64,000 nt of DNA from an uncultured Cellvibrionales bacterium (GTDB lineage: Bacteria > Pseudomonadota > Gammaproteobacteria > Pseudomonadales > Dasaniaceae). The stretch is taken from NCBI GenBank assembly GCA_913019905.1, contig CAJVZD010000011.1, positions 1 through 64,000 of the forward strand. Reading direction: 5' to 3'. Under the pieces are notes generated by a model. The model made no database searches. It had not been told where the DNA came from and saw only the letters and a list, made by a program, of their open reading frames with translations. Shown piece after piece: positions 29,729 through 44,193 of this stretch (within the stretch, counting starts at the first letter, position 1; each line of letters begins with the position of its first letter). The position numbers and the translations under genes are program-made.

Positions 29729-30313
29729 TAAGCTGAATCTCCAAAATCACACACTTAAGCGTTAGCTTCAATTCAGTAAAAAAACCAACAACCTTATGTA
29801 GACGGCGGCCGCTTATTTAATAGCACCACGGCTACAAAGCGCCCTACCGATAAGAAAAAATATAGCATAGAGGATACTGGAAAAAATAAACAGAAATAAG
29901 CTGAGAATCTAATGGGTGCCGGTCCAAAAATGTCGGTTTAAGATTGGTGTTTCTATTACAGGCCAAGTCTTAACTCAGCAATCTAATGATGCGAACCGGA
30001 TATCAATACCCGCATTTGCAGGGCCTACAGCAGCTTGCCACGTCGATGCGTCGATGCGTCGAGCCGTAAAGATCGCGATGACATACTTGAAAAACAGCTG
30101 TTTCTGGATGAGCACTAATAGGTAGGAAATTGAAGTAAAACAAGAAAAAAGCATCAAGCGGGAACAGTCGTCGCACTAAAATACAGGCTAGCACTTAATC
30201 AACTACTGATAATAACTTGAGTTCGGGTCTTTTGCAGGAGAGATATTTCAGACAAAAAAAGGGGGAGAACATAAATGCTCTCCCCATTACCTAGCTAAAA
30301 GCCAAGTAAAAAC
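29729..30313. other. Intergenic region before the storage island
   Basis: This 585-nt stretch has no supported gene. It contains three copies of an 8-nt unit (CGTCGATG, CGTCGATG, CGTCGAGC) at 30041-30064, and the phasin terminator at its right end. Short open frames around 29975-30194 on the minus strand show no recognisable domain. Confidence 0.5.
30254..30285 (-). terminator. Rho-independent terminator of the PhaF-like phasin gene
   Basis: On the minus strand GGGGAGAGC...GTTCTCCCCC forms a stem (one imperfect pair) followed by TTTTTTT (the A-run at 30254-30260 on the plus strand). It lies about 30 nt past the stop at 30314. Confidence 0.85.
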
Positions 30314-31078
30314 TTAGTGAGTGACCTGGTCGGGATTTTCTACTGATTTTACTACTACTTCTTCTAAAACTGGTTTAGCAACGGCGGTTAGAACCGGTTT
30401 AACAGCCGCTTCAAGAACAGGAGGCTTAGCTGCCGTCTCTACAACAGGCTTAACTGTTTTTTTTTCTGTAGATTCTGCTGCTTTTACCGAAGGCTTCGCT
30501 GCTGCTTTTTTGGCCGCAGGCTTAGCTGCCGCTTTTTTCACCGCAGGCTTAGCCGCTGTCTTTTTAGCTGCCGCCTTTTTCACTGCAGGTTTAGCTGCCG
30601 CTTTTTTAGCTGCAGGTTTAGCTGCTGCTTTTTTAGCTGCAGGCTTAGCTGCTGCTTTTTTTGCCGCTGCTGGCTTAGCCGCTACGACGTCTTTTGCAAC
30701 TGGTTCCGCAGTGGCTTTCTTCGCTGCCTTAACAACAGGAGCCGCCTTAACGTCCTTTACTGTATCAGCTGAAGATTCGTCTTGCTGATAAGTAGCTCGT
30801 ACAGCTGCACTGCTTTCTTTAAACGCATCTTTGACAATTTCAGTGTTAGCTTGAAAAGAGGTTTTTACGCCTTCCCAAACGTCCTGATTATATTCACGCT
30901 GTAAGTCCAAAAAATTCTTAATGCCGCCCACTTGAGGCAATTTTCCAAAATAATCTTTATTCAACTCGACATACTGCTCGAAGTTGTCACGTTGCAGCTC
31001 AACAAGGCTGCGAAGACTGTTGGCGTTAATCTGGTATAAATTCTTACCTAATGCTGTTTGCTTCTGTAATAAGCTCAT
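30314..31078 (-). CDS. Phasin with histone H1-like Lys/Ala/Pro-rich tail (PhaF-like)
   Basis: The protein has 254 residues. The first ~105 residues are an amphipathic helical phasin domain (SLRSLVELQRDNFEQYVELN...LQREYNQDVWEGVKTSF), clearly paralogous to the 110-residue phasin at 36294. From about residue 110 a tail built of AAKPAAKK-type repeats follows, like the AAKP tail of Pseudomonas PhaF, which binds DNA and helps PHA granules segregate with the nucleoid. By analogy it would coat granules and tether them to DNA. The ATG has GAGGAGG upstream; transcription starts at a TATAAT promoter inside a 35-bp palindromic element. Confidence 0.9.
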   Translation of the reverse strand: MSLLQKQTALGKNLYQINANSLRSLVELQRDNFEQYVELNKDYFGKLPQVGGIKNFLDLQREYNQDVWEGVKTSFQANTEIVKDAFKESSAAVRATYQQDESSADTVKDVKAAPVVKAAKKATAEPVAKDVVAAKPAAAKKAAAKPAAKKAAAKPAAKKAAAKPAVKKAAAKKTAAKPAVKKAAAKPAAKKAAAKPSVKAAESTEKKTVKPVVETAAKPPVLEAAVKPVLTAVAKPVLEEVVVKSVENPDQVTH

Positions 31079-31096
31079 GATTGCCTCCTCTGGCTA

Positions 31097-31138
31097 TGTT
31101 GCACTGCGTCATTATATCGTGCACTGCAACAAAATCAA
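31097..31138 (-). promoter_or_regulatory. Phasin promoter with overlapping 35-bp palindromic operator (copy A)
   Basis: On the minus strand TTGATT (31133-31138) and TATAAT (31111-31116) are 16 nt apart. The 35-bp element 31097-31131 has arms TGTTGCAGTGC and GCAGTGCAACA around the -10 box. It matches the element upstream of the second phasin at 33 of 35 positions. TGC-rich palindromes are the known target type of PhaR; its binding here is inferred. Confidence 0.8.
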
Positions 31139-31405
31139 GCAGTGAAGTAATTTATTTTTGCTTAAACCGAAAAAAGTTATCCGCATGACAGTAAATTTGA
31201 TACTAAAATCTTTCGTTCATCGTCCTTTAATACCTTCCTAGCGAAAATGTTCCTTTTATTTCTTGACGAATCTTATCGTTTAGCTGATCTTTATAAATAG
31301 AAAGTACTTTTGGTCACAGGGTATAATAAAATTAAAACGACACCCGCAAGACCCGTATTCCAAAACCTCACCTTTTATTTTTACCGGCATTAATCGGAGA
31401 TCACA

Positions 31406-31798
31406 ATGAGCGATGATAAAGCAACGACCCCAACGGAGCTTTTCCAGGAATGGGTTACTCAATGGGAGCGATCCGTAGACAGTTTTTCCAACAAACTCAT
31501 GGGTACAGATGAGTTTACCCGAGCCATTAACTCAGTTCAGAATACTCAACTGCAAATGCAAAAGGTATTCGGCGATATGATGGCTAAGCACCTGGCAAAC
31601 ATAAACATGCCGAGCCGCGAAGATATACTCCGCCTTGAAGAAGACTTCCAGGAGATGAACGCCAGACTTGCACGAATGGAAGTACAACTCGAAAAAATTT
31701 CTGGTGCGACAAATGCCGTAAAATCACCAAAACCAAAAGGTCCGCCACGAACTAAGAAGCCACCGTCGGCAACAAAGGATACAGAAGCTAAACATTAA
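31406..31798 (+). CDS. phaE: PhaE-like PHA synthase subunit, unusually short
   Basis: The protein has 130 residues. The N-terminus has a W-x-x-x-W stretch (LFQEWVTQWERSVDSF). The middle has the PhaE-family pattern NMPSREDILRLEEDFQEMNAR leading into a coiled coil (ARMEVQLEKI). The tail is Lys/Pro-rich. Class III synthases need a PhaE partner that activates PhaC, but known PhaE proteins are about 350 residues, so this one keeps little more than the C-terminal linker-and-coil part. It is followed 34 nt later by phaC. The ATG has GGAG at good spacing. The alternative is a class IV PhaR-like subunit or a small granule protein. Confidence 0.7.
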   Translation: MSDDKATTPTELFQEWVTQWERSVDSFSNKLMGTDEFTRAINSVQNTQLQMQKVFGDMMAKHLANINMPSREDILRLEEDFQEMNARLARMEVQLEKISGATNAVKSPKPKGPPRTKKPPSATKDTEAKH

Positions 31799-31832
31799 TT
31801 TAGGACGTCCTTAATTTTAGAGACAAAACGAT

Positions 31833-32909
31833 ATGACAGGAAACGCAGGGAATTCATCGATCAAAGATCGCGTCAATCAACTCGTAGATAGGACAGTGCA
31901 GAGAAGTCGCAAGGGCTTTGATTATGTACGGGCCAGTAAAGCGTCGGTCGGCTTAACTCCGAAGGATCTTATTTACGATAAAGGCACCTTACAGCTTTAC
32001 CACTACCGCCCTATCGCAGATGAAATCTATCGAGTCCCGATCATTATAGTGATGGCGACGACGAATAAAGGCTACCTCTTTGATCTATTACCCGGACAAA
32101 GTATGGTGGAGTTTTTACTGAAAAACGGCTATGACGTTTACATGATTGACTGGAATCCCCCCACCTCAAAAGAAAAACATCTTGGGCTGGCGGATTACAC
32201 TCAGGATTTCATACCTAGCTGTATAGAAAAAGTACAGGCAGAGACCGGAGAAACCGACGTATCGATTCTCGGCTACTGTATGGGAGGCGTGCTGTCGGTT
32301 ATGTATGCAGCTACTCATACCGATGGTCCGTTAAAAAACCTGGTATGCCTAACCACGCCGATCAACTGGCACGAAATGGGTTTAATGACTCACTGGAACG
32401 ATGAACGTTACTTTGACGTGGATCGCCTGGTCGACACACTGGGTGTCATTCCAGGCGACTTTATAGGCTCCAGTTTTGAAATGCTGAGACCCGCACAAAA
32501 AATTGCCTCTCGAGTTAGAGTGTGGGAAAACATGTGGAACGATGAGTATGTAAAATCCTATCGCGCTTTCGACCGCTGGGGAAGCGAATACGTGCCACTG
32601 GCGGGAGAGTACTTTAGAGAAACTACCAAAGATCTAATGTGGCATAACAAATTGTTTCGAGGGGAGCTAGAAATAGCGGGAAAAAAAGCCGACCTAGCCA
32701 ATATTACCATTCCGATTATGCACACAATTGCGCTGCACGATCACATCGTGCCTCCTTCCGCCAGTAAACCACTGCTGGATCTTGTCTCTTCTGAAGACAA
32801 AGAGGAGTTAGTATTAAAGGGCGGCCACGTGAGTCTTATCGCCGGCCCCAATGCAGTCAAAAGAATGTGGCCCAGTGTTAACGCCTGGTTAGGAGAGCGT
32901 TCATCTTGA
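31833..32909 (+). CDS. phaC: Class III-type polyhydroxyalkanoate synthase subunit PhaC
   Basis: The protein has 358 residues, the class III length (class I/II are about 560-600). The lipase-like box GYCMGG carries Cys149. The acid is Asp303 (ALHDHIV) and the base His332 (KGGHVSL); the Allochromatium vinosum class III enzyme uses Cys149, Asp302 and His331, so the spacing agrees almost exactly. It polymerises (R)-3-hydroxyacyl-CoA, usually 3-hydroxybutyryl-CoA, on the granule surface. The order is phaE-phaC-GNAT, with a 4-nt overlap into the GNAT gene. No phaA or phaB is in the window, so monomers must be supplied from elsewhere. Confidence 0.95.
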   Translation: MTGNAGNSSIKDRVNQLVDRTVQRSRKGFDYVRASKASVGLTPKDLIYDKGTLQLYHYRPIADEIYRVPIIIVMATTNKGYLFDLLPGQSMVEFLLKNGYDVYMIDWNPPTSKEKHLGLADYTQDFIPSCIEKVQAETGETDVSILGYCMGGVLSVMYAATHTDGPLKNLVCLTTPINWHEMGLMTHWNDERYFDVDRLVDTLGVIPGDFIGSSFEMLRPAQKIASRVRVWENMWNDEYVKSYRAFDRWGSEYVPLAGEYFRETTKDLMWHNKLFRGELEIAGKKADLANITIPIMHTIALHDHIVPPSASKPLLDLVSSEDKEELVLKGGHVSLIAGPNAVKRMWPSVNAWLGERSS

Positions 32910-33496
32910 AAAATGATAATAATAGATACCCTCTAACGGGGAGCTGTAAGGACGGAGAAATAAAACTGGAGCTATTTTCGGCCGAACGGCGCGACGATAT
33001 GCTCGCGTTTGCGAAATTACTTCCAGAACATGATCTTCTCTTTTTGAAACGCAATATAACTGAACCAAAGGTCGTGGACGCCTGGATAAACTCCATTGAA
33101 GCTGGCGATACAGTCAGTATTATCGCCTGCCGCGACAAAAAAATTCTGGGTTGCACAGCCCTGCTCACCGACAAGTTTTCCTGGTCATCGCACGTCGGCG
33201 AAGTTAGGGTCCTGGTGGCATCTGAAATGAAGGAGCAAGGCTTGGGCCGACTACTCATTCAAGAGTGCTTTATCGTAGGCTTGCAGCTTGGCCTAGCCAA
33301 GCTTACCGCGCAGATGACGGCTGATCAGGAAGCCGCCATTACGGTGTTCGAAGATATGGGATTTAAAACGGAAGCGATGTTAAGAGATCATGTAATGGAC
33401 CAAAACGGCGAGAAACATGACATCATCACACTGAGCCATGATGTTGAGCAATTTCATGCTCAATTAGATATGTACGGGTTAAACCAGGCTTTTTGA
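32906..33496 (+). CDS. GNAT family N-acetyltransferase
   Basis: The protein has 196 residues from a TTG at 32906 that overlaps the phaC stop (TTGA). AGGAG lies 10 nt upstream, and no good ATG lies further down before the fold begins. The GNAT core is seen as VGEVRVLVASEMKEQGLGRLLIQE, the acetyl-CoA loop with Q/R-x-x-G-x-G/A, followed by AAITVFEDMGFKTEAMLRDHV. It acetylates a small molecule or a protein; the target is unknown. Co-translation with phaC suggests a role in acyl-CoA or granule physiology, but that is inference. A weak hairpin (33486-33494 with 33529-33537) surrounds the stop codon. Confidence 0.88.
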   Translation: MKNDNNRYPLTGSCKDGEIKLELFSAERRDDMLAFAKLLPEHDLLFLKRNITEPKVVDAWINSIEAGDTVSIIACRDKKILGCTALLTDKFSWSSHVGEVRVLVASEMKEQGLGRLLIQECFIVGLQLGLAKLTAQMTADQEAAITVFEDMGFKTEAMLRDHVMDQNGEKHDIITLSHDVEQFHAQLDMYGLNQAF

Positions 33497-33900
33497 AAAA
33501 CTGCAGGCGTCTTAGTTAGTCTGCACGGAAAAAGCCTTCTATGACTTTTCCCGTGCGTCGCTGCTAAAAAGCACTCGCACAAAAACGTGGCTTTGCTGGT
33601 ATTTTTTGCGCTAGCAGTGCCCATAACGGCCAATGATGACACATCCCTCTGTTACGTCATGAACCAGAAAACGATACGTAGAGCAAAAGTTTCAGCGTGC
33701 CCCGAAGAGGTGGATCACCGGGATATGGGCTATAAAAATACAACATATATGCAGCTAAACGTTTGAAATTGAATCGACCTGCATTTTTCGGGATCAGCTA
33801 ATTACCGCTGTCGATCGCTTAGGCCGAGCGACAGAGGCGCACGCCGTATTTTACGGTATCCCTTTCACTCCCTCTAGCCAGTCTTTTTAATTGGCCATTT
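33497..33900. other. Intergenic region between GNAT gene and phaR
   Basis: A 404-nt space between convergent genes. Apart from a weak inverted repeat at the left end I see no gene, promoter or repeat in it. Confidence 0.5.
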
Positions 33901-34368
33901 TTATTGGTCTTCTTTACTAGTCTTTTTATTGGTACTTTTCTTAGCTGCACCTGTGGTGGTCAGATTTGTCCAGAAATCCATATTCTGCTGTATTGCTTTG
34001 CGGACAAACGCCACTGGCTCGACTTCAGCTAATGATTTCATGCGCTTACGATGAATTTCTTGCTGCTGTATAAACGTCATTATACTTTGCTCAATATAAC
34101 GGCTCACTAAGCTCTGCATCGAATCCCCGTAAAAACGAATCAATTGCTCCATGACTCTATTAGTGAGAATCGGTTCGTGCCCCTCTCCTTCCTGCTCCGA
34201 AATAATTTGCAGCAATACACTTCGTGTCAAATTTTTATCCGTTTTAGAGTCAATAACGGTTATAGATTGACCGTCAACAATTTCTTTACGAATTTGCTCC
34301 ACGGTAACGTAGCTGCTTTGCTCAATGTCATAAAGCCTGCGATTGGGGTATTTTTTATAGTGTTTCAT
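33901..34368 (-). CDS. phaR: PHA synthesis repressor PhaR
   Basis: The protein has 155 residues from ATG 34368, chosen because MKHYKKYPNRRLYD is the family N-terminus. In-frame starts at 34383 (ATG) and 34395 (GTG) would add up to nine residues. The N-terminal PHB/PHA accumulation regulator DNA-binding domain covers KKYPNRRLYDIEQSSYVTVEQI to LLQIISEQE. It is followed by PHB_acc repeats (MEQLIRFYGDSMQSLVSRYIEQS) and a Lys-rich tail. PhaR binds free granules and DNA alternately, repressing phasin genes until polymer is present. It is divergent from the first WS/DGAT; TGC-rich boxes lie between them. Confidence 0.93.
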   Translation of the reverse strand: MKHYKKYPNRRLYDIEQSSYVTVEQIRKEIVDGQSITVIDSKTDKNLTRSVLLQIISEQEGEGHEPILTNRVMEQLIRFYGDSMQSLVSRYIEQSIMTFIQQQEIHRKRMKSLAEVEPVAFVRKAIQQNMDFWTNLTTTGAAKKSTNKKTSKEDQ

Positions 34369-34433
34369 CTTTAGTCCGCTCATGGGTCTGTGCACCAGAC
34401 TCTTTGAACGGAATTGTAACAGATTTCACTTTT

Positions 34434-34446
34434 TTGCGCTGCACAA
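34434..34446. promoter_or_regulatory. TGC-rich box, candidate PhaR site
   Basis: TTGCGCTGCACAA lies between phaR and the -35 box of the WS/DGAT promoter. It resembles the half sites of the phasin operators (TTGCAGTGCAC). Confidence 0.55.
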
Positions 34447-34455
34447 AAGTAATTA

Positions 34456-34483
34456 TTGACAAAAGAAATAATGTAAATATAAT
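34456..34483 (+). promoter_or_regulatory. Sigma-70 promoter of the first WS/DGAT gene
   Basis: TTGACA (34456-34461), a 16-nt spacer and TATAAT (34478-34483) are both consensus boxes. The transcript would have a leader of about 215 nt before the ATG at 34709. Candidate regulator boxes lie on each side. Confidence 0.75.
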
Positions 34484-34506
34484 ACGCGCCCGAATATCGA
34501 CGTAAT

Positions 34507-34522
34507 TGTTGCAGCGCACAAA
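34507..34522. promoter_or_regulatory. TGC-rich box downstream of the promoter, candidate PhaR site
   Basis: TTGTTGCAGCGCACAA lies about 18 nt past the likely transcription start, a position suited to a roadblock operator. A further related box, CGCGCTGCACTTA, is at 34658-34670. Confidence 0.55.
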
Positions 34523-34638
34523 TCACTATCTGTCGAACAATTAGGCATTCGTCGATCTGGAGCCACAGTTTGAAGACACATAGGCCGTGTCCAGTTCAAT
34601 AGTAAAAGCAACAAAACCAAGATTATTACCGCAAGATT

Positions 34639-34660
34639 CGCGATAACAAACGTTATCGCG
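34639..34660 (+). repeat. Perfect 9-bp hairpin in the WS/DGAT leader
   Basis: CGCGATAAC and GTTATCGCG pair around AAAC, about 50 nt upstream of the start codon. It directly precedes a TGC-rich box. It could be an RNA hairpin or a dyad for a regulator. Confidence 0.6.
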
Positions 34661-34708
34661 CTGCACTTAATTTATTCATCACTTTACAAACAACGGAGCG
34701 AAAAACGA

Positions 34709-36211
34709 ATGCAAAAGCTGGGTGCTTTAGATGGAAATTTCTTCTATACCGAAACGGACAAAACCCCAAATCATGTTTCTTCAGTACAACTCTTTGAATT
34801 GCCAAAGAAAACGAATGAAGAACAGTTTCTTAGTGGCCTGAAAGATTTTTATCAATCACGCATCCACCTTGTACCTTACTTAACCCGCATTCCCCGTTTT
34901 GTGCCCGGCAACATTGACCACCCCGTTTGGGTCAAAGACAAGCATTTCGATATCGAAAACCACATCATTCGAATTAATATGCCCGCACCTGGATCCTTTG
35001 AACAGCTCGAGCTAAAAGTCGCTGAAATTCACGCTGAACTCATGGACCGCAACAAGCCACTTTGGCAATTGTTTGTAATCACAGGATTAGAAGACAATAA
35101 AATCGCCTTCTACAACCAAGCTCACCACGCTTGCATTGATGGTATGGCAGGCCAGGCAGCAACCATGATTATGATGGATACCACGCCGGATCACCCTACG
35201 ATTGAAAAACCAGAAGCAAGCAATAAAAAAGAAGAGGGGATGGCAGAGCTGTTTCGCCTGAGCTTCGAGAACCTATTAAAGTTTCAAATTGATCTTCCCA
35301 GCCACACATTAGGCAGTATCGACGCGTCGGCACGCTTAACAAAACTTGCCTTGACGCCCGGCAAGCAAGTGAGTAAAACCTTTCGCTCGGCACCGAAGAC
35401 ACGCTTTAATCGTATGGTTGGCAAGAAAAGAACCTACGCAGCTGGAGACATGTCAGTAACAGAACTAAAAGCAATGGGCAAAGCCGCAAATTGTAAACTG
35501 AATGACATTTTTATGGCCGTCTGCGCCGGAGGCCTGCGTAGCTACATGGAAAGATCGGACGATCTTCCCCGCAGAACGCTTAAAGCTGCATGTCCGGTAT
35601 CTCTGCGTAAGCCGGGAGATACCAGCATGGAAAATCAAGTCACCATGATGACTGTTGGTCTCGCAACAGATATACGTGACCCACTATTGCGACTACGCTC
35701 AATCATCGATTCTTCGCTGCTCGGCAAGGAGATAGTCGCAGCGGTTTCAGAGGGCTACAACCCTAACGTTTCAATGTTCGGCTTGCCAGCACTTATCACC
35801 TCCGCATCAAAAGTTGCCGAGTTCTTTAACATGGCGAATGTTGCACCCACACCGTTTAACCTTGTTATTTCAAATGTACCTGGTCCGCGCGAAACACTCT
35901 ATTCGAACGGCGCAAGGATGCTCACCCATTATCCTGTCTCTATACCGGTACACAGCCAGGGCCTTAACATCACAGCCAGTAGTTATATTGATAGCTTGTA
36001 CTTCAGCGTCACAGCCTGTGCGCTTGCTGTACCTGATGCGGTGAGACTACGAGACGACATCATGACAGCATTCATTGAGCTGAAGAGCCTGCTCATTCCA
36101 AACCCAAATAAAGTGACGGACTTACAATCCAGGCAATCCGACATCGCTGTAGAGCCCGCTCCAGTTATAGAGGACTTGGATATCGAAGATGACTTGAAAA
36201 AGGCATCATAA
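34709..36211 (+). CDS. Wax ester synthase/diacylglycerol acyltransferase (WS/DGAT), copy 1
   Basis: The protein has 500 residues. It esterifies acyl-CoA to fatty alcohols or diacylglycerol at the inner membrane, making storage wax or triacylglycerol. The active-site HHACIDG lies at 139-145. Other family blocks are NKPLWQLF (115-122), the ND motif LNDIFMAVCAGGLR and the NVPGPRETLYSNGARMLTHYPVSI stretch. It belongs to the longer of the two subfamilies in the window, with copies 2 and 3. The ATG has CGGAG upstream. The acidic C-terminal ~35 residues are extra. It lies directly before the second phasin gene. Confidence 0.95.
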   Translation: MQKLGALDGNFFYTETDKTPNHVSSVQLFELPKKTNEEQFLSGLKDFYQSRIHLVPYLTRIPRFVPGNIDHPVWVKDKHFDIENHIIRINMPAPGSFEQLELKVAEIHAELMDRNKPLWQLFVITGLEDNKIAFYNQAHHACIDGMAGQAATMIMMDTTPDHPTIEKPEASNKKEEGMAELFRLSFENLLKFQIDLPSHTLGSIDASARLTKLALTPGKQVSKTFRSAPKTRFNRMVGKKRTYAAGDMSVTELKAMGKAANCKLNDIFMAVCAGGLRSYMERSDDLPRRTLKAACPVSLRKPGDTSMENQVTMMTVGLATDIRDPLLRLRSIIDSSLLGKEIVAAVSEGYNPNVSMFGLPALITSASKVAEFFNMANVAPTPFNLVISNVPGPRETLYSNGARMLTHYPVSIPVHSQGLNITASSYIDSLYFSVTACALAVPDAVRLRDDIMTAFIELKSLLIPNPNKVTDLQSRQSDIAVEPAPVIEDLDIEDDLKKAS

Positions 36212-36230
36212 TTTTATTTTCCCAATTATC

Positions 36231-36272
36231 TTGCATTTGTTGCAGTGCACTATATAATGACGCACTGCAACA
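36231..36272 (+). promoter_or_regulatory. Phasin promoter with overlapping 35-bp palindromic operator (copy B)
   Basis: TTGCAT (36231-36236), 16 nt, TATAAT (36253-36258). The element 36238-36272 has arms TGTTGCAGTGC and GCACTGCAACA, perfectly complementary 11-mers. It matches copy A upstream of the PhaF-like gene in sequence, in promoter spacing and in position of the -10 box. Probable PhaR operator. Confidence 0.82.
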
Positions 36273-36293: not shown

Positions 36294-36626
36294 ATGAGCA
36301 TCATTGAAAAGCAAACAGAATTAGGTCGCACTTTATTTCAAATCAACACCAGCACTCTGCGCGAATACACTTCAATGCAGCGTGACAACATTGGCAAATA
36401 CGTTGAGCTAAACAAATCTTACGGCCAGAAATTGCCAGAAGTTAAATCAATCAGTGATTTTGTTTCTTTACAGCGCGACTACAATGCGTCAATCTGGAAC
36501 GGCCTAAAAGAGTCTGTATCCGAGCAAGCAACTCTTGTTAAAGGTGCGTTAGAAGAAACGGGCACTGCACTTAAGACAGCTTTCTCTAAAGCAGACGAAG
36601 CTGAAGTTGAAGCTGAAGCCGCTTAA
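36294..36626 (+). CDS. Phasin family protein, short
   Basis: The protein has 110 residues, almost wholly amphipathic helix with no signal peptide. It shares the pattern LREYTSMQRDNIGKYVELNKSY...SLQRDYNASIWNGLKESV with the first domain of the PhaF-like phasin but lacks the basic tail, ending instead in an acidic EAEVEAEAA. It is expected to coat PHA granules (or possibly neutral-lipid bodies) and limit their fusion. The ATG has TAGGAGAG at good spacing. It has its own strong, probably PhaR-controlled promoter and is followed by a very long hairpin. Confidence 0.9.
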   Translation: MSIIEKQTELGRTLFQINTSTLREYTSMQRDNIGKYVELNKSYGQKLPEVKSISDFVSLQRDYNASIWNGLKESVSEQATLVKGALEETGTALKTAFSKADEAEVEAEAA

Positions 36627-36669: not shown

Positions 36670-36731
36670 CTTTTGCTGGAATTCATAGTCAGGTTTTTAT
36701 CAAAAAATCTGACTATGAATTCCAGCAAAAG
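36670..36731 (+). terminator. Perfect 23-bp inverted repeat after the phasin gene
   Basis: Arms at 36670-36692 and 36709-36731 are exactly complementary. The 16-nt loop can add six more pairs (one G-T and five T-A), so the stem may reach 29 bp. It lies 43 nt past the phasin stop and 22 nt before the hydrolase start. No T-run follows; as RNA it would protect the phasin mRNA 3' end or block read-through. Confidence 0.75.
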
Positions 36732-36753: not shown

Positions 36754-37563
36754 ATGCAAATTATCAACTCAAATCTTTTCGCCTTACTCGAAGCTCCTCG
36801 TGCATTAACAGATCTTGCCTCCCTCCCTTTATCTACACCTATTTTAAATCAAATCCCATCCGGTGACGGCCACGGAATCTTCGTTATTCCCGGCTTTGGC
36901 GCAAGTGATAGATCGACCTTCATTTTGCGACGTTTTCTACAAAGCAAAGGCTACCCATGTTCTGGCTGGGGAATGGGCAGGAATTTAGGTATCGAACGTA
37001 GCGGCGGCGTCAATCAGCTCAACGACAACTTCATGGAATTTCAGGAGAGAACGGGCGATAAAGTGAGCCTTATTGGCTGGAGCCTGGGTGGAATTCACGC
37101 GCGGCGAATAGCTCGGTTACACAGAGACTCAGTGCGGCAAGTCATCAGCTTGGGAAGCCCTATCAACGGAGCGCCCATTGATACCGGAGTATGGAAAGCT
37201 TACCAATACATTAACAAGCGCGTCGTCACCGCTGATCGAACCGAGCACGGCTCAACACGCCTATTCAAGAGCATCGAAATCCCCAGCACGTCCATTTACA
37301 GCAAGTCAGACGGCATTGTCCCGTGGCATCTATCGCTGGAAAAAGAGGCCTTACAAGCGGACAATATTGAGGTGGTAGCGAGTCATATCGGATTGGGAGT
37401 GAACGCCTCAGTCTTCTATATTATTGCCAATCGATTGGCATTGCCAGACGGCGAATGGAAACGTTTCAACGCAAATTTATGGCGGCATCGGCTGGCTTTG
37501 GCAGCGCTTAATCCGCTTGGTACAATCGTTCAATCTATAGATAAAATTTCGAGCCGAGACTAA
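36754..37563 (+). CDS. Alpha/beta hydrolase
   Basis: The protein has 269 residues with no signal peptide. The nucleophile elbow is LIGWSLGGIHAR (G-W-S-L-G). Before it VIPGFGASDRSTFILRRFL is the oxyanion-loop strand. The probable acid and His are in YSKSDGIVPWHLS and VVASHIGLGVN. It resembles small triacylglycerol-lipase/PGAP1-like esterases. In this setting it could hydrolyse wax, triacylglycerol or PHA oligomers; that is inference. AGG touches the ATG directly, so translation may be weak or the true start unusual. It is separated from the phasin gene by a long hairpin. Confidence 0.85.
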   Translation: MQIINSNLFALLEAPRALTDLASLPLSTPILNQIPSGDGHGIFVIPGFGASDRSTFILRRFLQSKGYPCSGWGMGRNLGIERSGGVNQLNDNFMEFQERTGDKVSLIGWSLGGIHARRIARLHRDSVRQVISLGSPINGAPIDTGVWKAYQYINKRVVTADRTEHGSTRLFKSIEIPSTSIYSKSDGIVPWHLSLEKEALQADNIEVVASHIGLGVNASVFYIIANRLALPDGEWKRFNANLWRHRLALAALNPLGTIVQSIDKISSRD

Positions 37564-37682
37564 TACTGGCTAGAGAAAAACTGGCAGAAATAACGATTCC
37601 ACCAGTTTGCTTCCACTCTACTCTGCACTAACTCAGCCCCGACCCTGCCTTAACTCTACATCGAAAAACTAGCCGCTGTGAC

Positions 37683-39152
37683 TTAGACTGACTTTCTCTT
37701 TTTATAGATTCTCTTCACATCGTGATCCGAATGATGATCGAGAATTGTATCCAGGCATTTACCCACTTTCGAACTGATTCTTATTTGCTCAAGGTTAGCC
37801 CATGTAGACCGCTCGCCTTCCGCTGCTAACTCTTCCATCTCCTTGAGGGTCAGATGACCTAACAGTTTTTGCGGATCAACAAAGCTAAATGAAGGTGCAA
37901 TATTTACGTCTCCGGTATAGTTTTGTGCGGCGACAGAATAAAACATATTCATTGCCTTGCTAACTCCGGGCCAGGGACTCAGGTAACGGCGGCTCAGCTC
38001 CTCTCCCGACCGAAGCGCTTCGCGCCCCGCGTGCCGCACCACATTTTTTATACTCTTAGGCGCAAACCAGTACTCGTCACCTTTTTGAATCATTAAGGCC
38101 AGCGGATTAGCCTGACTAACGATATAGTGATTAACTCCATATAATCTAGCCAATCGCTTAGCCGGTAAATCGTCGGTGACGGCGCCATCGACCCAACGCC
38201 TGTTGGGCAAATAGGGTTGAGCTTCACCGAAAACATTCTTTGCCATCAGCATAACAGGTGGAAAGACACCCGGAACCGCACAGGAAGCCAGGACAGCAGT
38301 ACGAATAAACACGTTAGGCGATGTTGTCGCATTCATCAAACGTGACGTTTGGTGTTGTTCAGCGGGAGCAATGGTTACATTAATCAAACGTCCGGTTTTT
38401 TCGTAGGCCTCTTGAAAAGTCATATCCGGTATTAATTCTTTCAGCATTTGATGGACATCGTTCACATCAACCTGCGGCCGCCTGATACCCAGACTTGCCT
38501 CTTCGAGCACTCTCTGGCCGGAACTCATCATGCCTTGATCGAGTAATATTTCCAACTCACTTTCCGTATGAGTCCCCAATACGCCAGCAAGCACCGATCC
38601 TGCACTAGAGCCCGAAATAACAGCCGGCATTAAATTGTGCGCTATCAGAGTCTTAACGACACCCGTATGAAAATGGCCGAGAGAACCGGCGCCACTCAGC
38701 ATCAGTGCTGACCGACCAAAACAATGACTGGCTCGCTCAAAAAAGTCGAGCTTCTCTTCAAAAGGAATTTCGTTTTCGGGCAGGGAAGAAATATGCTGCA
38801 AGCTCGTTACCAACTCATCGACATACTCTTCGATTAGAACCTTGGTTCCGAATTTGGCGCGCTCATACAATACCGACTTACCCATGCCGCCCATATTGCC
38901 ATGGATACCTTCGTTCAGCGCGAATAACAGTCCGATATCGTCACCGGCTTCCCGGAGAGAGCGAATTTCTTTCAAGCGAGTTTGAATATTGACGTAGTCA
39001 TAATCATCAGATTTTGACTTTTTTTTCCACTCCTTTCGTCCGGAAATATCATCATGCTCCAATGCATTCCTTTTCCACTCATCATAAGTGGCTGCGTTTT
39101 TCATCTTCTGCTCAATTTTCGTGAGTTCAACAGATAGTGATTGGACCAACAT
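37683..39152 (-). CDS. Patatin-like lipase with DUF3336 domain
   Basis: The protein has 489 residues. The N-terminal DUF3336-type helical domain spans about 1-130 (AATYDEWKRNALEHDDISG). The patatin domain follows: glycine-rich MLSGAGSLGHFHTGVVKTL, nucleophile GSSAGS (G-x-S-x-G) and the dyad Asp in VDGAVTDDLP. DUF3336-patatins include the yeast triacylglycerol lipases Tgl3-5, so it probably mobilises the neutral lipid made by the neighbouring WS/DGATs. The ATG has GGAG upstream. A TGC-rich box (39198-39210) overlaps its likely promoter. Confidence 0.9.
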   Translation of the reverse strand: MLVQSLSVELTKIEQKMKNAATYDEWKRNALEHDDISGRKEWKKKSKSDDYDYVNIQTRLKEIRSLREAGDDIGLLFALNEGIHGNMGGMGKSVLYERAKFGTKVLIEEYVDELVTSLQHISSLPENEIPFEEKLDFFERASHCFGRSALMLSGAGSLGHFHTGVVKTLIAHNLMPAVISGSSAGSVLAGVLGTHTESELEILLDQGMMSSGQRVLEEASLGIRRPQVDVNDVHQMLKELIPDMTFQEAYEKTGRLINVTIAPAEQHQTSRLMNATTSPNVFIRTAVLASCAVPGVFPPVMLMAKNVFGEAQPYLPNRRWVDGAVTDDLPAKRLARLYGVNHYIVSQANPLALMIQKGDEYWFAPKSIKNVVRHAGREALRSGEELSRRYLSPWPGVSKAMNMFYSVAAQNYTGDVNIAPSFSFVDPQKLLGHLTLKEMEELAAEGERSTWANLEQIRISSKVGKCLDTILDHHSDHDVKRIYKKRKSV

Positions 39153-39905
39153 GTTTTCTCCAGTCTCAGTTATGAATCTTTATTACCCTTGTTTTTCCGC
39201 ACTGCACAATCCAATTGAGTATTCATCAAAGGCACTTATACAGTCAAGATATTTATTCATCATTTATGACATTAAATCACTTACTTATCTGATTAACCCA
39301 CATCAGCCCCGTCAAAGAGACAGTAAAGAGGAAAGAACAACGAAAAACTATAACCTATTGTGTGCCCCACAGCACAGGTCCAACAGTGTGCGAAATTTGA
39401 AAAGGCGCACAAATAACGACCAACACAAAATCGTCAGTCCATAGCGATTTTTGTGTTTACCTTCGCAAGCCATTGATGCCTATAGATTTACCGTTTTGAA
39501 TCAACAATGGCACAGCTATTGCTAAATAGTTTCTAAAACAGTCTCAATGAAGCGTGGAAACTACCGGATTAGCAAAGTTATGCCGCCGCAAGCTTCAGTT
39601 ATAGGCATGCAAAATGAAATGACCTTACACATATTAACGAAATCTTTAAGGGTTATTAATTTCCCATTAACAATTTCATTAGATATTTGGTTTTGTCTAA
39701 CGAGTGCATAAGTTAGACATAAACCAAGCATATACAACCCGTAGCCAATGCATAAAGAACACCCGGAAAAATTGCTAATTGAAGCAATACAAACGGCAGG
39801 TCTTACACGATTGCCATGGAACAAACGTTTTCACGTAAACATTAACACTACCACCAACACTGACACTGACATATCGATTTCAAACCCACTTAAAGGAATA
39901 GTCAA
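39153..39905. other. Intergenic region between patatin gene and WS/DGAT copy 2
   Basis: A 753-nt, AT-rich space between divergent genes, holding both promoters. On the patatin side a likely -35/-10 pair reads TTGTGC, 18 nt, TAATAA on the minus strand. Partial TGC/GCAC boxes recur at about 39360-39420. No coding frame in it has a recognisable domain. Confidence 0.5.
39198..39210 (-). promoter_or_regulatory. TGC-rich box upstream of the patatin gene, candidate PhaR site
   Basis: CCGCACTGCACAA, read on the minus strand as TTGTGCAGTGCGG, shares TGCAGTGC with the phasin operators and overlaps a possible -35 box. A single half site, so weaker evidence than at the phasin genes. Confidence 0.45.
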
Positions 39906-41408
39906 TTGAAAAAACTCAGCGCCCTCGATGCAAACTTTCTCTACAGTGAAAGTCCGAAAACACCGAACCATATTTCTTCCGTTCAGATATTTAAACCGAC
40001 AAAGAATCAATCGATCGATGTATTTACCAAAGGGCTCAAAGAGCTTTTCAGATCGAGACTGCATCTAGTTCCTTATCTCACACATAAGCTAAAATTTACG
40101 CCGGGCAATATTGACCACCCCGTATGGATGGAAGATACCGAGTTTGATATTGACAACCATTTTTTTCGTATTGAACTCACAGCACCCGGGTCTTTTACTC
40201 AACTGGAAGAAAAGGTGGCGGAAATTCACTCTGAATTAATGGATAGATCAAAACCCTTGTGGAAAATTTTCATCATAACCGGACTCGAAGATGGAAAGTT
40301 TGCTTACTATAATCAAGCCCATCATGCCTGTCTTGACGGAATGGCAGCGCAAGCCGCGACTCAGACTTTGATGGACACCACCCCCAATCCAACGATCGTA
40401 ACCCCGGCTAGTGAACCCCGCACAAATGACGAAAACCTCACAGAACTTTTTCGTCTAAGCGCTGAGAACCTTTTCAAATTTCAGCTGGCTGTTCCGAAAA
40501 ATACGGTGAACTTTATGAATTCCCTTTTCCGACTATCCAAACGCGTCATCGATCCCGACAAGTCGTCCGGGAATCTGTTTTCGATTGCACCGCCAACACG
40601 GTTTAATCGTTCTGTTAGCAGGGAGCGTTCATACGCAGCCGGAAACATGTCAGTATTGGAAATGAAGGCAATGGCAAAACTCTCATGCTGTAAGTTGAAC
40701 GACATTTTCCTAGCAGTCTGTGCAGGAGGATTACAACGTTACATGCTTCGATTAAACGAACTTCCTTCTCGCTCACTCATCGCTGCATGTCCGGTATCAC
40801 TGCGCAAACCGGGAGACATTAGCATGGACAACCAAGTCACAATGATGGGCATTGCTTTAGCTACAGATCTTTCTGACCCTCTTTTGCGACTAAACGCGAT
40901 CACCCATTCATCGCGTACCGCGAAAGAACTTATCGCTGATGCCGCAGGCCTACAAAATACAGAAGTGTCGCTCTTTGGGCTACCGGCATTCATGACTTCA
41001 ATCTCCCGTATTGCCGAAACAATCGGCCTAGCGGATAGAATTCGCAGTCCAATGAACGTCCTTATATCCAATGTACCCGGCCCTCAAGAAACATTGTACT
41101 CCAACGGCGCAAAAATGCTCACTCACTATCCCGTCTCCATTCCAACGCACGGATTCGGATTGAATATTACCGGTACAAGCTACGTAAATGACTTTTGTTT
41201 TGCCATAACATCTTGCGCAAAAGCGGTACCGGATGCCACAATTATGCGAGACGATATTATGGATGCCTACGAAGAACTAAGGTCTGTACTGATACCAAAG
41301 TTCATCGTTGTCGAAAAGACAATAGCAGAGGAAGGATTTGCCGATGAACGCACTGATGCGGTTTCATTAGGTTCCACGTCAACGCAAGCCGAAGTCCGTG
41401 TTGCCTAG
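39906..41408 (+). CDS. Wax ester synthase/diacylglycerol acyltransferase (WS/DGAT), copy 2
   Basis: The protein has 500 residues from a TTG at 39906 with AAGGA seven bases upstream; the N-terminus MKKLSALDANFLYSE matches its paralogs, so the TTG is well supported. The active-site HHACLDG lies at 139-145, with SKPLWKIF, the ND motif LNDIFLAVCAGGLQ and NVPGPQETLYSNGAKMLTHYPVSI. It is closest to copies 1 and 3. It makes wax esters or triacylglycerol from acyl-CoA. It is convergent with the hsp20 gene. Confidence 0.94.
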   Translation: MKKLSALDANFLYSESPKTPNHISSVQIFKPTKNQSIDVFTKGLKELFRSRLHLVPYLTHKLKFTPGNIDHPVWMEDTEFDIDNHFFRIELTAPGSFTQLEEKVAEIHSELMDRSKPLWKIFIITGLEDGKFAYYNQAHHACLDGMAAQAATQTLMDTTPNPTIVTPASEPRTNDENLTELFRLSAENLFKFQLAVPKNTVNFMNSLFRLSKRVIDPDKSSGNLFSIAPPTRFNRSVSRERSYAAGNMSVLEMKAMAKLSCCKLNDIFLAVCAGGLQRYMLRLNELPSRSLIAACPVSLRKPGDISMDNQVTMMGIALATDLSDPLLRLNAITHSSRTAKELIADAAGLQNTEVSLFGLPAFMTSISRIAETIGLADRIRSPMNVLISNVPGPQETLYSNGAKMLTHYPVSIPTHGFGLNITGTSYVNDFCFAITSCAKAVPDATIMRDDIMDAYEELRSVLIPKFIVVEKTIAEEGFADERTDAVSLGSTSTQAEVRVA

Positions 41409-41438
41409 CCGGCCTGTGCATCTAACCACCTTAGCACT

Positions 41439-41471
41439 AGCCAGAGTACAGCCAGAGTAAAGCCAGAAGAA
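41439..41471. repeat. 11-nt tandem repeat, three copies
   Basis: AGCCAGAGTAC, AGCCAGAGTAA and AGCCAGAAGAA follow one another just past the WS/DGAT copy 2 stop. Confidence 0.65.
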
Positions 41472-41608
41472 GTCATGAGCCGACTCCATGTTGTGATAGT
41501 CAGCCATAACAACATTTTCGGCGTTGAAAGTAACCTCCGAACCGGCGCACCGCTGACGTTTTGTCAGAAATCGACGCCACTACCTTTAACTTGGAAAACG
41601 GATAGGTC

Positions 41609-41648
41609 AAAAATGAAGAGCTGCACGGCAGCGTCCAACTCTTCATTT
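41609..41648 (-). terminator. Rho-independent terminator of hsp20
   Basis: On the minus strand AAATGAAGAG pairs with CTCTTCATTT across an 18-nt loop and is followed by T-rich sequence. It starts 3 nt past the hsp20 stop. Confidence 0.75.
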
Positions 41649-41650
41649 CT

Positions 41651-42232
41651 TTAAGACGAAATGCTAATCCTTTTAACGTCTTTTTTCTCAGTAGCATGCC
41701 GAGGAATTTTCAGGATTAGCACCCCATCTTTCATTGTTGCCTTCAGGTCGTCAGCAGCAGCGTCTACCGGTAAAGACAGCGTTCTCTGAAACGAACCAAA
41801 GCTTCTTTCTACCCTATAGAAATGTTTATCTTTTTCCTCTTTGGCTTCCTCCTTCTGACCTTTGATGCTTAATACATCACCTTGCAGTTCAATAGACAGA
41901 TCTGATTCTGTTAATCCAGGCACATCCAGTGTCACTTCATATTGATCCTCGCTTCCCGATATATCAATCTGTGGGCGATATACATCGACCAGCCTATTTT
42001 CTGACAATCGACCTCCCGTAGTCATATTCCCAACTGACGGAAACCCATAACCACGAAAAACCTCATCAAAAAAGTTGTTCATCTCTCGATGAATTCGAGA
42101 CAAATTCCCAATACCATCCGATGAGGGAGTAACATCAGTACTTTTCCTCGTCACAGGGATATTTCCCTGCTGATGCACGCCCCCCTCCTCGTGCTTAAAC
42201 CAATTCCAGGGATTCAATTTTTCGAAATTCAT
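41651..42232 (-). CDS. Hsp20/alpha-crystallin family small heat-shock protein
   Basis: The protein has 193 residues. A polar N-terminal arm of about 85 residues is followed by the alpha-crystallin domain (YRPQIDISGSEDQYEVTLDVPGLTESDLSIELQ), ending in the conserved G-x-L motif (MKDGVLILKIPR) and a short tail. It is an ATP-independent holdase that keeps unfolded protein soluble. The ATG has TAGGAGG at good spacing. Hsp20 proteins are known to associate with PHA granules in several bacteria, so its place inside a storage island may be functional. Confidence 0.93.
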   Translation of the reverse strand: MNFEKLNPWNWFKHEEGGVHQQGNIPVTRKSTDVTPSSDGIGNLSRIHREMNNFFDEVFRGYGFPSVGNMTTGGRLSENRLVDVYRPQIDISGSEDQYEVTLDVPGLTESDLSIELQGDVLSIKGQKEEAKEEKDKHFYRVERSFGSFQRTLSLPVDAAADDLKATMKDGVLILKIPRHATEKKDVKRISISS

Positions 42233-42347
42233 ATCGATAACCTCCTAGTAATTTTCTAAAACCACTGCCATATATTAGTAATGAGAAAAACTGTTTTTAG
42301 TATTAACCTCTCATCAGTTATCCGCACTAACTCAGAGCGCTCTACCA

Positions 42348-42536
42348 TTAGACGGTAAAATTGACTGTTCGCCCATTACCGTTCAGCTGAGCAACTTCGT
42401 TCTTATCCCGGTCAAACTCATGATCTCCGTTGTGTTCATAATCAAATCTCCTGAATTTTTCCCAAATCACTTTCCGCTGAGAAATTACACCGGCAAAATA
42501 TTCGCTAGTAAAATCAATTTGAGGTTTCTTCAGCAT
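42348..42536 (-). CDS. Possible small hypothetical protein
   Basis: A 62-codon frame, polar and charged, ending in LNGNGRTVNFTV. It lies between the WS/DGAT copy 3 and hsp20 genes on the same strand. I recognise no domain, and the ribosome site (TTGA) is weak. It may not be a real gene. Confidence 0.3.
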   Translation of the reverse strand: MLKKPQIDFTSEYFAGVISQRKVIWEKFRRFDYEHNGDHEFDRDKNEVAQLNGNGRTVNFTV

Positions 42537-42541
42537 TTTTC

Positions 42542-42598
42542 AAGAATCATCTTTATAATAATTTGAAATATTAGAAATCATTTTAATAGATGATTCTT
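42542..42598. repeat. 11-bp inverted repeat between WS/DGAT copy 3 and the small frame
   Basis: AAGAATCATCT (42542-42552) and AGATGATTCTT (42588-42598) pair perfectly across 35 AT-rich bases. It lies 84 nt past the WS/DGAT copy 3 stop and could be its terminator. Confidence 0.6.
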
Positions 42599-42681
42599 CA
42601 TGCCTTCCAATTCAGTACAACAAATCTGAATTTCTCTGCACACGACTCACACGTCAGCATTCCTATAGCGTTAGAACTTAC

Positions 42682-44193
42682 TTACCGACTTCCTCCAACA
42701 GTAACATCAGCAGTCGGCGTAACGGTCGGCATTGGAATGACAGGCCGCGATATTTTCGCGCCACCCAACACAATCGTCGATTCGCTCGAAATTGTCGCTC
42801 TAGGAATTAGTGTAGAACGAAGCTCCTCCCAAGCCGCCAGAATATCGTCTCTAATAATCCCGGCATTCGGTACGGCTTTGGCGCAGGAGGTCACTGAAAA
42901 ACATAGCGTATTCACATAACTGCTGGCCGTAATATTTAGTCCCAAACCATGTGTTGGAATGGACACTGGGTAATGGGTTAGCATTTTTGCACCGTTGGAA
43001 TACAAGGTCTTCCGCGGGCCGGGAACATTGGAGATAATGAGATTGAAAGGGATCGGTAAGATCTCTGCTAGACGCAAGGTTTCGGACATCCGGTAGCTCG
43101 ACGTCAACCAAGCCGGAAACCCGGCTAACGAAATCTGTAAGTTCTGAAGCGCCGCAGTGTCGTTCGACACTTCCTTAGCGATTCTGGATGAATCAATTAT
43201 TGCATTCAATCGTAGTCGCGGATCTTCGATATCAGTTCCGAGGGCAACGCTCATAATCGATACTTTGTTATCCATGGAAACATCACCCGGCTGGCGCAAT
43301 GATACGGGGCATCCAGCCACCAGTGTTCGCGCCGGTAATTCATTCGTACGAAGCAAATACCGCCGTAAACCACCGGCACAGATGGCCAATAGCACATCGT
43401 TTAAGGTACCGTTACACATTTTTGCCATTCTTTTAAGATCCGCAACCGGTATATCACCGGCAGCGTAGGTGCGTTTTTTTTCAATACACCGGTTGAAACG
43501 AGTTTTCGGTGTGGCAGCGGGTATATAGTTAAACGGCATGTTCGGATCAAAAGCACGTTTGGCCATACGAAACGCCGAGCCCAAGATATTTAACGCCTGT
43601 ACGGGGCTGTCAATTTGGTAGTTTACAAGGTTATCAAAGCTTAACCGAAGTAGTTCAGACAGACTATCATCTTCAGTTGGTTTTTCCGTTGCCGGTTCTA
43701 TTGGTTGTGCTTTCGCCGTTGTATCCATCATAATCATCGTTGCAGCTTGACCAGCCATTCCATCCATTGCAGCGTGATGAGCTTGATTATAATAGGCGAT
43801 TTTTCCGCCCTCCAGACCCGAGATTAAAAATAGCTTCCATAGTGGTTTATCCCGGTCCATCAATTTCGCATGTATTTTGGCGACTGTCTCTTCCAATTGA
43901 CTAAAGCTCCCTGGCAGGGCTAGCTTTATGTGCTCAAAGTGATTGTTCAGATCGAAGTTTTTGTCTTTTACCCACACGGGATGATCGATATTACCCGGAG
44001 TAAATTTGAGCTTTCGAGTCAAGTACGGAACCAAATGAATGCGTTCCATGAAATAATATCTAAGACTACTAATGAATTCATCCAAACTACATTCATCCGG
44101 AAGTTCAAGTATCTGAACCGATGAAATGTTATTCGGTGTCCTTTCACTTTCAGAATAAAGAAAATTGGCATCCAGAGCCTTGAGCTTTTGCAT
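42682..44193 (-). CDS. Wax ester synthase/diacylglycerol acyltransferase (WS/DGAT), copy 3
   Basis: The protein has 503 residues. The active-site HHAAMDG lies at 139-145 (Ala-Met in place of the Cys-Ile/Leu of copies 1 and 2). DKPLWKLF, the ND motif LNDVLLAICAGGLR and NVPGPRKTLYSNGAKMLTHYPVSI are all present. The last ~35 residues are a low-complexity tail rich in Val, Ile, Pro and Thr, unlike its paralogs. The ATG has AGAGGAA upstream. Same reaction class as copies 1 and 2; the acyl or alcohol preference cannot be told from sequence. Confidence 0.94.
   Translation of the reverse strand: MQKLKALDANFLYSESERTPNNISSVQILELPDECSLDEFISSLRYYFMERIHLVPYLTRKLKFTPGNIDHPVWVKDKNFDLNNHFEHIKLALPGSFSQLEETVAKIHAKLMDRDKPLWKLFLISGLEGGKIAYYNQAHHAAMDGMAGQAATMIMMDTTAKAQPIEPATEKPTEDDSLSELLRLSFDNLVNYQIDSPVQALNILGSAFRMAKRAFDPNMPFNYIPAATPKTRFNRCIEKKRTYAAGDIPVADLKRMAKMCNGTLNDVLLAICAGGLRRYLLRTNELPARTLVAGCPVSLRQPGDVSMDNKVSIMSVALGTDIEDPRLRLNAIIDSSRIAKEVSNDTAALQNLQISLAGFPAWLTSSYRMSETLRLAEILPIPFNLIISNVPGPRKTLYSNGAKMLTHYPVSIPTHGLGLNITASSYVNTLCFSVTSCAKAVPNAGIIRDDILAAWEELRSTLIPRATISSESTIVLGGAKISRPVIPMPTVTPTADVTVGGSR

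Follow-up and report, generated by a model that had tools for sequence, protein, structure and literature searches.

A putative PhaR-controlled storage island in a Cellvibrionales bacterium, with a predicted GNAT acetyltransferase gene beside phaC

Results

Gene content of the island

The conserved core of the storage island is a pair of genes, phaC and that of a predicted GNAT acetyltransferase, and around this core genes for PHA and for neutral-lipid synthesis are grouped beyond chance. We lean towards reading the locus as a PhaR-controlled dual-storage island, in which the GNAT is predicted to tune the PHA synthase via acetylation. The stretch analysed, called here the window, is 64 kb long. 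A preliminary description had listed PHA and WS/DGAT genes within 14 kb, followed by more WS/DGATs and acyl-CoA dehydrogenases, and this inventory was borne out, as every gene it named was located at its given coordinates by a Pfam/NCBIfam profile search. The storage genes span 30.3–44.2 kb, and two further WS/DGATs and three acyl-CoA dehydrogenases lie downstream of 44.2 kb:

30314..31078, minus strand: phasin A, Phasin_2 (residues 5–95, 29.2 bits) with a Lys/Ala/Pro-rich histone-H1-like tail
31406..31798, plus strand: short (130-aa) synthase subunit resembling PhaE/PhaR(Bacillus) (PF09712, 24.5 bits; C-terminal PPRTKKP at residues 113–119)
31833..32909, plus strand: PhaC, class III-like PHA synthase (C149, D303, H332; TIGR01836, 320.8 bits)
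32906..33496, plus strand: predicted GNAT acetyltransferase, start overlapping the phaC stop by 4 nt
33901..34395, minus strand: PhaR, PHA-responsive repressor family (TIGR01848, 125.6 bits; PF07879, PF05233)
34709..36211, plus strand: WS/DGAT 1 (TIGR02946, 368.6 bits; cut-off 309.95)
36294..36626, plus strand: phasin B, Phasin_2 (26.2 bits)
36670..36731, no strand: terminator-like inverted repeat in the phasin B/hydrolase gap (29-nt arms, 97% complementary, 4 nt between)
36754..37563, plus strand: lipase-like alpha/beta hydrolase (ABH) with a GWSLG nucleophile elbow
37683..39152, minus strand: DUF3336-patatin lipase (Pfam/NCBIfam)
39906..41408, plus strand: WS/DGAT 2 (TIGR02946, 377.6 bits; cut-off 309.95)
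41651..42232, minus strand: Hsp20 small heat-shock protein (Pfam/NCBIfam)
42682..44193, minus strand: WS/DGAT 3 (Pfam only)
45030–46172, 46187–47431 and 61691–62962: three acyl-CoA dehydrogenases (Pfam/NCBIfam)
54356..55780, minus strand: WS/DGAT 4 (Pfam/NCBIfam; HHxxxDG)
57126..58553, minus strand: WS/DGAT 5 (Pfam/NCBIfam; HHxxxDG)

Both phasins scored above the Phasin_2 gathering threshold of 24.9 bits. WS_DGAT domains and an intact HHxxxDG motif were present in all five WS/DGATs; the first three are close paralogues (57–60%), and WS/DGAT 4 shares 55–56% identity with the WS/DGATs linked to phaE–phaC–GNAT in two other loci (L122, L123). The genome comprises 6.4 Mb in 177 contigs, with a contamination estimate of 5.1. 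The segment at 59.4–61.5 kb (HK/RR) matches DNA of three genomes of the same genus (G001, G003, G005) at 68–74%, which favours, and does not prove, that the contig belongs to the genome. The window holds five of the genome's nine WS/DGATs and its sole PhaC match, and the concentration of these genes therefore exceeds chance.

The phaC–GNAT pair

The GNAT gene that overlaps phaC is absent from the preliminary list. It was found paired with phaC in 26 of the 28 named loci whose PhaC is at least 43% identical, for 18 of 19 GNATs in three genome draws, and in 30/34 cases in a later family draw; the exceptions were L041, L049, L111 (WS-linked), L135, L136, L151 and L154. These counts rule out a random neighbour. 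The order phaE–phaC–GNAT was seen in records from Pseudomonadota, Chloroflexota and Eremiobacterota. In L109 phaE stands 2.5 kb apart from phaC, and in L133 no phaE was found. Lipase-like and phasin genes near phaE–phaC–GNAT are recurrent, optional companions elsewhere. The annotated Priestia and Rhizobium comparison stretches, in contrast, list no GNAT. A literature search, by titles and starts of abstracts and with subscription papers mostly outside its reach, found neither a phaC–GNAT operon nor a PHA–WS/DGAT island, and the word "GNAT" was absent from those papers that were word-searched for it.

The arrangement of the 14 kb as a whole is not conserved in the loci scanned. The PhaR, DUF3336-patatin and Hsp20 of the window had no ORF matches in loci L031–L063, L074–L079 and L104–L123, the range covered by the scan, so that conservation there is limited to the core with optional WS/DGAT, phasin and ABH genes. 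A search for conserved linkage of phaC, phasin and WS/DGAT had been suggested as a check; Phasin_2 genes do join the PhaC/WS/DGAT linkage in several lineages, but the conserved partner of phaC is the unlisted GNAT.

The PHA synthase and its small subunit

PhaC resembles class III (PhaC–PhaE) and class IV (PhaC–PhaR) synthases in its fold, its catalytic residues and the adjacent gene for a helical accessory subunit. It differs from them in scoring below the curated class III cut-off of TIGR01836 (365.3 bits), as do nine other GNAT-linked PhaCs (280.5–318.1 bits), so that all ten scored members of the clade miss it, while a Rhizobium control reached 387.9. The catalytic C149, D303 and H332 were invariant across 20 aligned PhaCs, and the lipase-like box [G/S]-[Y/F]-C-x-G-G was present in 50 of 53, the remaining three reading A-Y-C-x-G-G.

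The subunit narrowly misses the Pfam gathering score (PF09712, residues 3–90; 25.7 bits required). A second difference from the known classes is its length together with a C-terminal motif, P-x-R-T-K/R-x-P, which occurs in 45/48 short PhaEs of the first sets (43/46 listed, plus L046 and L062) and in 24 of the 30 members of a second family. None of six comparison PhaE/PhaR proteins (L057, L059, L061, L063, L086, L087) carries it, and outside PhaE only four further matches were seen among 5665 ORFs. The tail motif is also missing from L154, where there is no phaC. Since the K/R position reads R in many members, an acetylation site is disfavoured for this motif, and we prefer to regard it as a candidate docking site.

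The GNAT protein

The GNAT is a single domain of 196 aa with a GNAT fold. Its acetyl-CoA-binding loop, which in this superfamily we take to be [R/K/Q]-x-x-G-x-G, is preserved throughout: G112 and G114 were found in 50/50 sequences, as was R or K at position 109. In the fold search, among the matches listed, Pat/PatZ tied for the best structural match, and the Pat and PatZ structures reach the N-terminal strand of the model (from residue 1–8). RimL and RimJ, which acetylate protein N-termini, reach it too, along with a few further structures, PA3270 among them. SpeG, ArsN and the phosphinothricin enzymes, among the same listed matches, begin at residue 12–19. Pat-type protein lysine acetyltransferases are typically fused to a synthetase-like or regulatory domain, and in this they differ from the GNAT, which stands alone. 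We predict that the protein acts as an acetyltransferase on proteins in the manner of Pat. A second GNAT lies directly behind a WS/DGAT in three records (this genome, G642 and L037).

PhaR and operator-like sites

PhaR scored above the family cut-off (109.45 bits) and carries both PHB_acc domains. We looked for matches to the published PhaR consensus (PMC6201568), allowing at most one mismatch. Five PhaR-box-like places were found, two of them exact and the rest with one mismatch, giving 10 strand-hits against a mean of 0.71 in shuffles:

31117..31131: site 1, one mismatch, divergent phasin A/phaE promoter region
34432..34446: site 2, phaR/WS1 intergenic region, containing TGCGCTGCACAA at 34435–34446
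34507..34521: site 3, phaR/WS1 promoter region, 34510–34521 exact to the consensus
36238..36252: site 4, one mismatch, upstream of phasin B
39195..39209: site 5, one mismatch, divergent patatin/WS2 promoter region

The footprinted phaP4 site of B. diazoefficiens is identical in every letter to TGCGCTGCACAA. Site 4 sits within a 37-mer that is nearly identical to a 37-mer preceding phasin A. In its PhaR protein and its operators the island is like the PhaR/AniA/PhbF regulons of Bradyrhizobium, Sinorhizobium and Herbaspirillum, for which the operator is reported in phasin and phaR promoters (PMC6201568, PMC3206438, PMC12542648). Here, unlike there, sites also stand upstream of WS/DGAT and patatin genes; the word "wax" is absent from the main text of PMC10888616 and "lipid" from PMC12542648. 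Because matching sites precede both kinds of genes, the PHA and neutral-lipid sets are likely to be switched together. In other loci, the PhaR box ahead of phaE is weak.

Linkage of WS/DGAT and PHA genes

Linkage of this kind also occurs in other genomes. In a first sample, a WS/DGAT lay within 8 kb of a PhaC of the present type in 13 of the 15 genomes having such a PhaC, although nine of these 13 belong to one genus; in a second, 5 of the 17 placeable genomes had a WS/DGAT no more than 4 kb from the GNAT. Nearness of the two gene sets is thus recurrent yet optional. The alternative that two modules merely stand side by side, a PhaR-run PHA module and a functionally uncoupled WS/DGAT expansion, is rather improbable in our estimation. 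It agrees with the 12 of 17 placeable genomes in which linkage was missing, with the lack of any WS/DGAT in 4/19 and 14/34 GNAT-carrying genomes, and with the close relationship of WS1–3, as local duplication yields. Against it stand the PhaR-box-like sites that precede patatin/WS2 and, in the region common to phaR and WS1, also WS1, a linkage well above the chance level, which is about 0.2–1% for each genome of the first sample and 3% for the own genome, and the finding that none of 42 other PhaC-like genes was linked. The proposed single regulated programme gains support at the sequence level from the sites, but WS/DGAT is an optional neighbour. The preliminary description also raised mixed inclusions carrying shared phasins as a possibility.

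Discussion

We propose that PhaR binds the five promoter sites and represses both gene sets alike, and that PHA granules would titrate it off the DNA, as reported for its homologues. The encoded enzymes would make PHA and wax ester/TAG. The GNAT may be an active, acetyl-CoA-dependent lysine acetyltransferase, with the synthase complex as its target and PhaE as first candidate; the second GNAT behind a WS/DGAT is predicted to tune neutral-lipid synthesis likewise. A wider form of this model, which we put forward only tentatively, is that a Pat-like family provides common control of two chemically unrelated synthases, one clade going with the PHA synthase and another with WS/DGAT. The acetyl-CoA level would gate both stores through acetylation, at the granule surface, of the synthase complexes and foremost of PhaE, PhaR would switch both gene sets, and P-x-R-T-K/R-x-P would be the docking site.

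The GNAT could instead acetylate a small molecule, for instance a polyamine or an amino-acid-like compound, and so protect from or clear a by-product of storage, with no protein as substrate. Its relatives by sequence and fold do include SpeG, ArsN/phosphinothricin acetyltransferases and YncA, but this reading is opposed by the almost invariable company of a synthase gene, by the further association with a second, unrelated synthase that uses acyl-CoA and by the N-terminal strand shared with Pat, PatZ, RimL, RimJ and a few others. In Haloferax mediterranei, according to a review, the acetylation state of a class III PhaE affects PHA synthesis (PMC7137286), and for this reason we gave slightly more weight to the wider acetylation model and slightly less to a small-molecule substrate, which we consider unlikely. 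The H. mediterranei PhaE is archaeal, unlike the bacterial subunit of the window; neither haloarchaeal locus (L057, L058) has a GNAT of this family beside phaC, and the L057 PhaE lacks the tail motif. Slightly more doubtful still is a PhaC clade that does not act as a storage PHB synthase and whose product differs from ordinary PHA, for instance oligomers of a few 3-hydroxyacyl units or, together with WS/DGAT, mixed acyl esters. The scores below the class III cut-off would fit this, as would B. diazoefficiens, where PHB reportedly requires PhaC1 only and where blr2885 showed poor or no expression under the microaerobic conditions examined (PMC10888616); blr2885, adjoining phaP5 (blr2887), appears to be the counterpart locus. 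However, the catalytic residues are retained, the nearest solved structures are PHA synthases, and phasin and PhaR genes adjoin the only PhaC match of the genome.

Bacterial polyester and oil have mostly been treated as separate stores, in study and in engineering alike. The synthase–GNAT pair, repeatedly near WS/DGAT, phasin and lipase-like genes and in this island under shared operators of the PhaR type, is a concrete candidate for dividing acyl-CoA between the stores, and the GNAT could be the missing kind of enzyme for the PhaE acetylation that a review reports from one archaeon. The pair also offers a possible role for PhaC paralogues that seem idle in the laboratory, as may be the case for blr2885. 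Isolates such as Novosphingobium aromaticivorans DSM 12444, where PhaC and the GNAT are SARO_RS18630 and SARO_RS18635, make the idea testable. Rhodococcus jostii RHA1, too, has more than one WS/DGAT paralogue alongside PHA synthases in a single genome; its atf genes are described as widely distributed outside operons with other genes of TAG metabolism and its PHA genes occupy three separate loci (PMC2667194), unlike the grouping in the window.

The GNAT gene within the storage island

The preliminary description had listed the polyester and neutral-lipid genes of the island, all of which were confirmed by Pfam and NCBIfam. A GNAT gene absent from that list follows phaC, its start overlapping the phaC stop by 4 nt.

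Genes of the storage island, in gene order (coordinates of the window)
30314-31078, minus strand, phasin A
plus strand, short PhaE-like subunit
plus strand, PhaC
32906-33496, plus strand, GNAT
minus strand, PhaR
plus strand, WS/DGAT 1 (WS1)
plus strand, phasin B
plus strand, lipase-like alpha/beta hydrolase (ABH)
minus strand, DUF3336-patatin
plus strand, WS/DGAT 2 (WS2)
minus strand, Hsp20
minus strand, WS/DGAT 3
past WS/DGAT 3, two acyl-CoA dehydrogenases, WS/DGATs 4 and 5 and a third acyl-CoA dehydrogenase (Pfam/NCBIfam)

Five of the nine WS/DGAT genes in the genome (6.4 Mb in 177 contigs) fall inside the window, and the genome contains one PhaC match. Phasin A consists of a Phasin_2 domain and a long AAKPAAKK-type tail, which gave a weak match of 21.5 bits to a histone-H1-like model, under the cut-off of 80; this architecture is reminiscent of PhaF. 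At 36670-36731, separating phasin B from ABH, is an inverted repeat whose 29-nt arms are 97% complementary; it may end the WS1-phasin B unit.

Conservation of the phaC-GNAT pair

A scan of named genomes around PhaC relatives gave 33 loci. GNAT was found directly behind phaC in 26 of the 28 whose PhaC is 43-69% identical to that of the window, some of these loci being near relatives (L052, L055 and L060; L053 and L054), and in none of the five with 33-37% identity. The exceptions were L041, which has no GNAT, and L049, where GNAT is some 5 kb upstream and next to a WS/DGAT gene. The loci represent, among others, Pseudomonadales and further Gammaproteobacteria as well as Xenophilus, Chloroflexota (L047) and Eremiobacterota (L042). 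Novosphingobium aromaticivorans carries the phaE-phaC-GNAT module on its finished plasmid pNL2, where the products are annotated in turn as PhaE, an alpha/beta fold hydrolase and a GNAT protein and the genes are separated by a 1-nt gap and then a 1-nt overlap; among 72,556 plasmid records, 231 had a PhaC relative and one, pNL2, had the GNAT.

Whole-genome searches of partially overlapping draws detected GNAT in four out of 368 further genomes at class level (one match was weak and is excluded from later counts), four out of 389 at order level and 11 out of 397 at phylum level; 18 of the 19 strong GNATs lay behind phaC and one behind a WS/DGAT gene. A later-drawn family, in which 36 of the 298 genomes and 18 of the 96 genera carry GNAT, is presumably the sphingomonads, since its first two GNATs group with that of Novosphingobium (support 93/73). 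Its 34 new genomes had GNAT behind phaC in 30 cases; L154 has phaE and no phaC, and neither PhaC nor WS/DGAT was present within the fetched stretches of L135, L136 and L151. In the family of genome G699, only G699 itself carried GNAT (1/46). Pairwise identities of GNAT and PhaC covary (r 0.93, 46 loci), as shared descent would also give.

In L154 (9538-10438) GNAT directly follows phaE, whose product lacks the tail motif, an arrangement that would fit loss of phaC from the operon middle. The module on a contig of Corynebacterium sp. CNJ-954 (L046) has GNAT and PhaC nearest to Xenophilus, which would reflect either horizontal transfer or a contig of foreign origin. The module in two metagenome records under the title Klebsiella pneumoniae (L053, L055) has a GNAT nearly identical to that of Gammaproteobacteria-titled bins (L054, L060), and the Klebsiella titles look wrong.

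A second GNAT was found in the genome of the window (locus L074), directly behind a WS/DGAT gene on the same strand and 40% identical to the phaC-linked GNAT of the window. The corresponding pair of genome G642 (L111) is arranged alike and is 72% and 68% identical to the L074 pair; in L037 phaE-phaC-GNAT faces GNAT-WS/DGAT, and in L049 GNAT and WS/DGAT stand tail to tail. These WS/DGAT-linked GNATs form one clade (support 100/98).

PhaR-box-like sites and proposed regulation

The promoter regions of phasins A and B contain near-identical 37-mers. The site had already been spotted by eye when the published consensus was consulted; the consensus itself, TGCRNYGCASMA, is independent, coming from B. 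diazoefficiens footprints (excerpts of PMC6201568), and similar operators have been described for PhbF of Herbaspirillum and for R. sphaeroides (excerpts of PMC3206438 and PMC12542648). With one mismatch allowed, the window had 12 fully intergenic matches; ten lay within the island at five places, in the spacers phasin A/phaE, phaR/WS1 (two), WS1/phasin B and patatin/WS2. The total over the whole window is not raised. Shuffled island spacers (300 shuffles) gave a mean of 0.71 and a maximum of 7 matches. In the genus that supplies nine of the 13 genomes with WS/DGAT near the module PhaC, a Phasin_2 gene (Pfam check on L113 only) follows GNAT, preceded by an exact PhaR box in eight; the ninth slice was too short. 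Three of its loci (L118, L120, L121) bear TGCATCGCACAA, the site given for B. diazoefficiens phaP5 (blr2887) in the excerpts of PMC6201568; from this match we infer Bradyrhizobium as the genus and blr2885 as the GNAT-linked PhaC paralogue.

Free PhaR would likely repress the phasins, phaE-phaC-GNAT, phaR itself, WS1 and patatin/WS2. Nascent PHA, whose binding by PhaR homologues is reported (PMC12542648), would draw PhaR off, so that polyester enzymes, neutral-lipid enzymes and granule proteins would rise together. GNAT is predicted to sense acetyl-CoA and acetylate the synthase complex. The PhaE of Haloferax mediterranei is an acetylated protein, and PHA synthesis falls when it is deacetylated (excerpts of PMC7137286), a precedent for the effect but not for the enzyme.

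Linkage to WS/DGAT genes

Linkage of PHA and WS/DGAT genes recurred far above chance yet proved optional. WS/DGAT was present in 15 of 19 genomes with the module (our genome included), in 13 of them 1.8-8.0 kb from the module PhaC, and was within 10 kb of none of the 42 other PhaC-like genes of the same genomes. Nine of the 13 belong to one genus, so independent cases are fewer: this genus, a second genus, G699 and our genome, with L037, L041, L042, L044, L049 and L062 among the named loci. Gene order on one strand was phaC-GNAT-WS/DGAT-phasin in L062 and phaC-GNAT-phasin-SDR-WS/DGAT in L112. Among the 34 presumed sphingomonads, 20 had WS/DGAT: five less than 4 kb from GNAT, 12 with none within 10 kb (including G1355, with only 3.6 kb visible on one side, and G1336, by a weak, broken match) and three on contigs under 5 kb. 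PHA synthases, WS/DGATs and PhaR regulons all belong to known kinds; the titles and abstract openings listed by targeted searches of an open-access library describe neither a GNAT-bearing PHA synthase operon with a short motif-tailed PhaE nor its recurrent WS/DGAT pairing.

ABH was near the module in 24 of the 34 genomes. A P450-reductase fusion (Pfam) lies between WS/DGAT and phaE in L113 (2691-5990), with homologues in L114, L116, L119 and L123. A family of 144-205 aa proteins near ABH-phaE-phaC in 13 loci gave no Pfam match for the two members scanned (L050:24-467, L047:8348-8848) and is maybe a phasin of another kind. In some of the loci a PadR-type regulator also lies near ABH-phaE-phaC.
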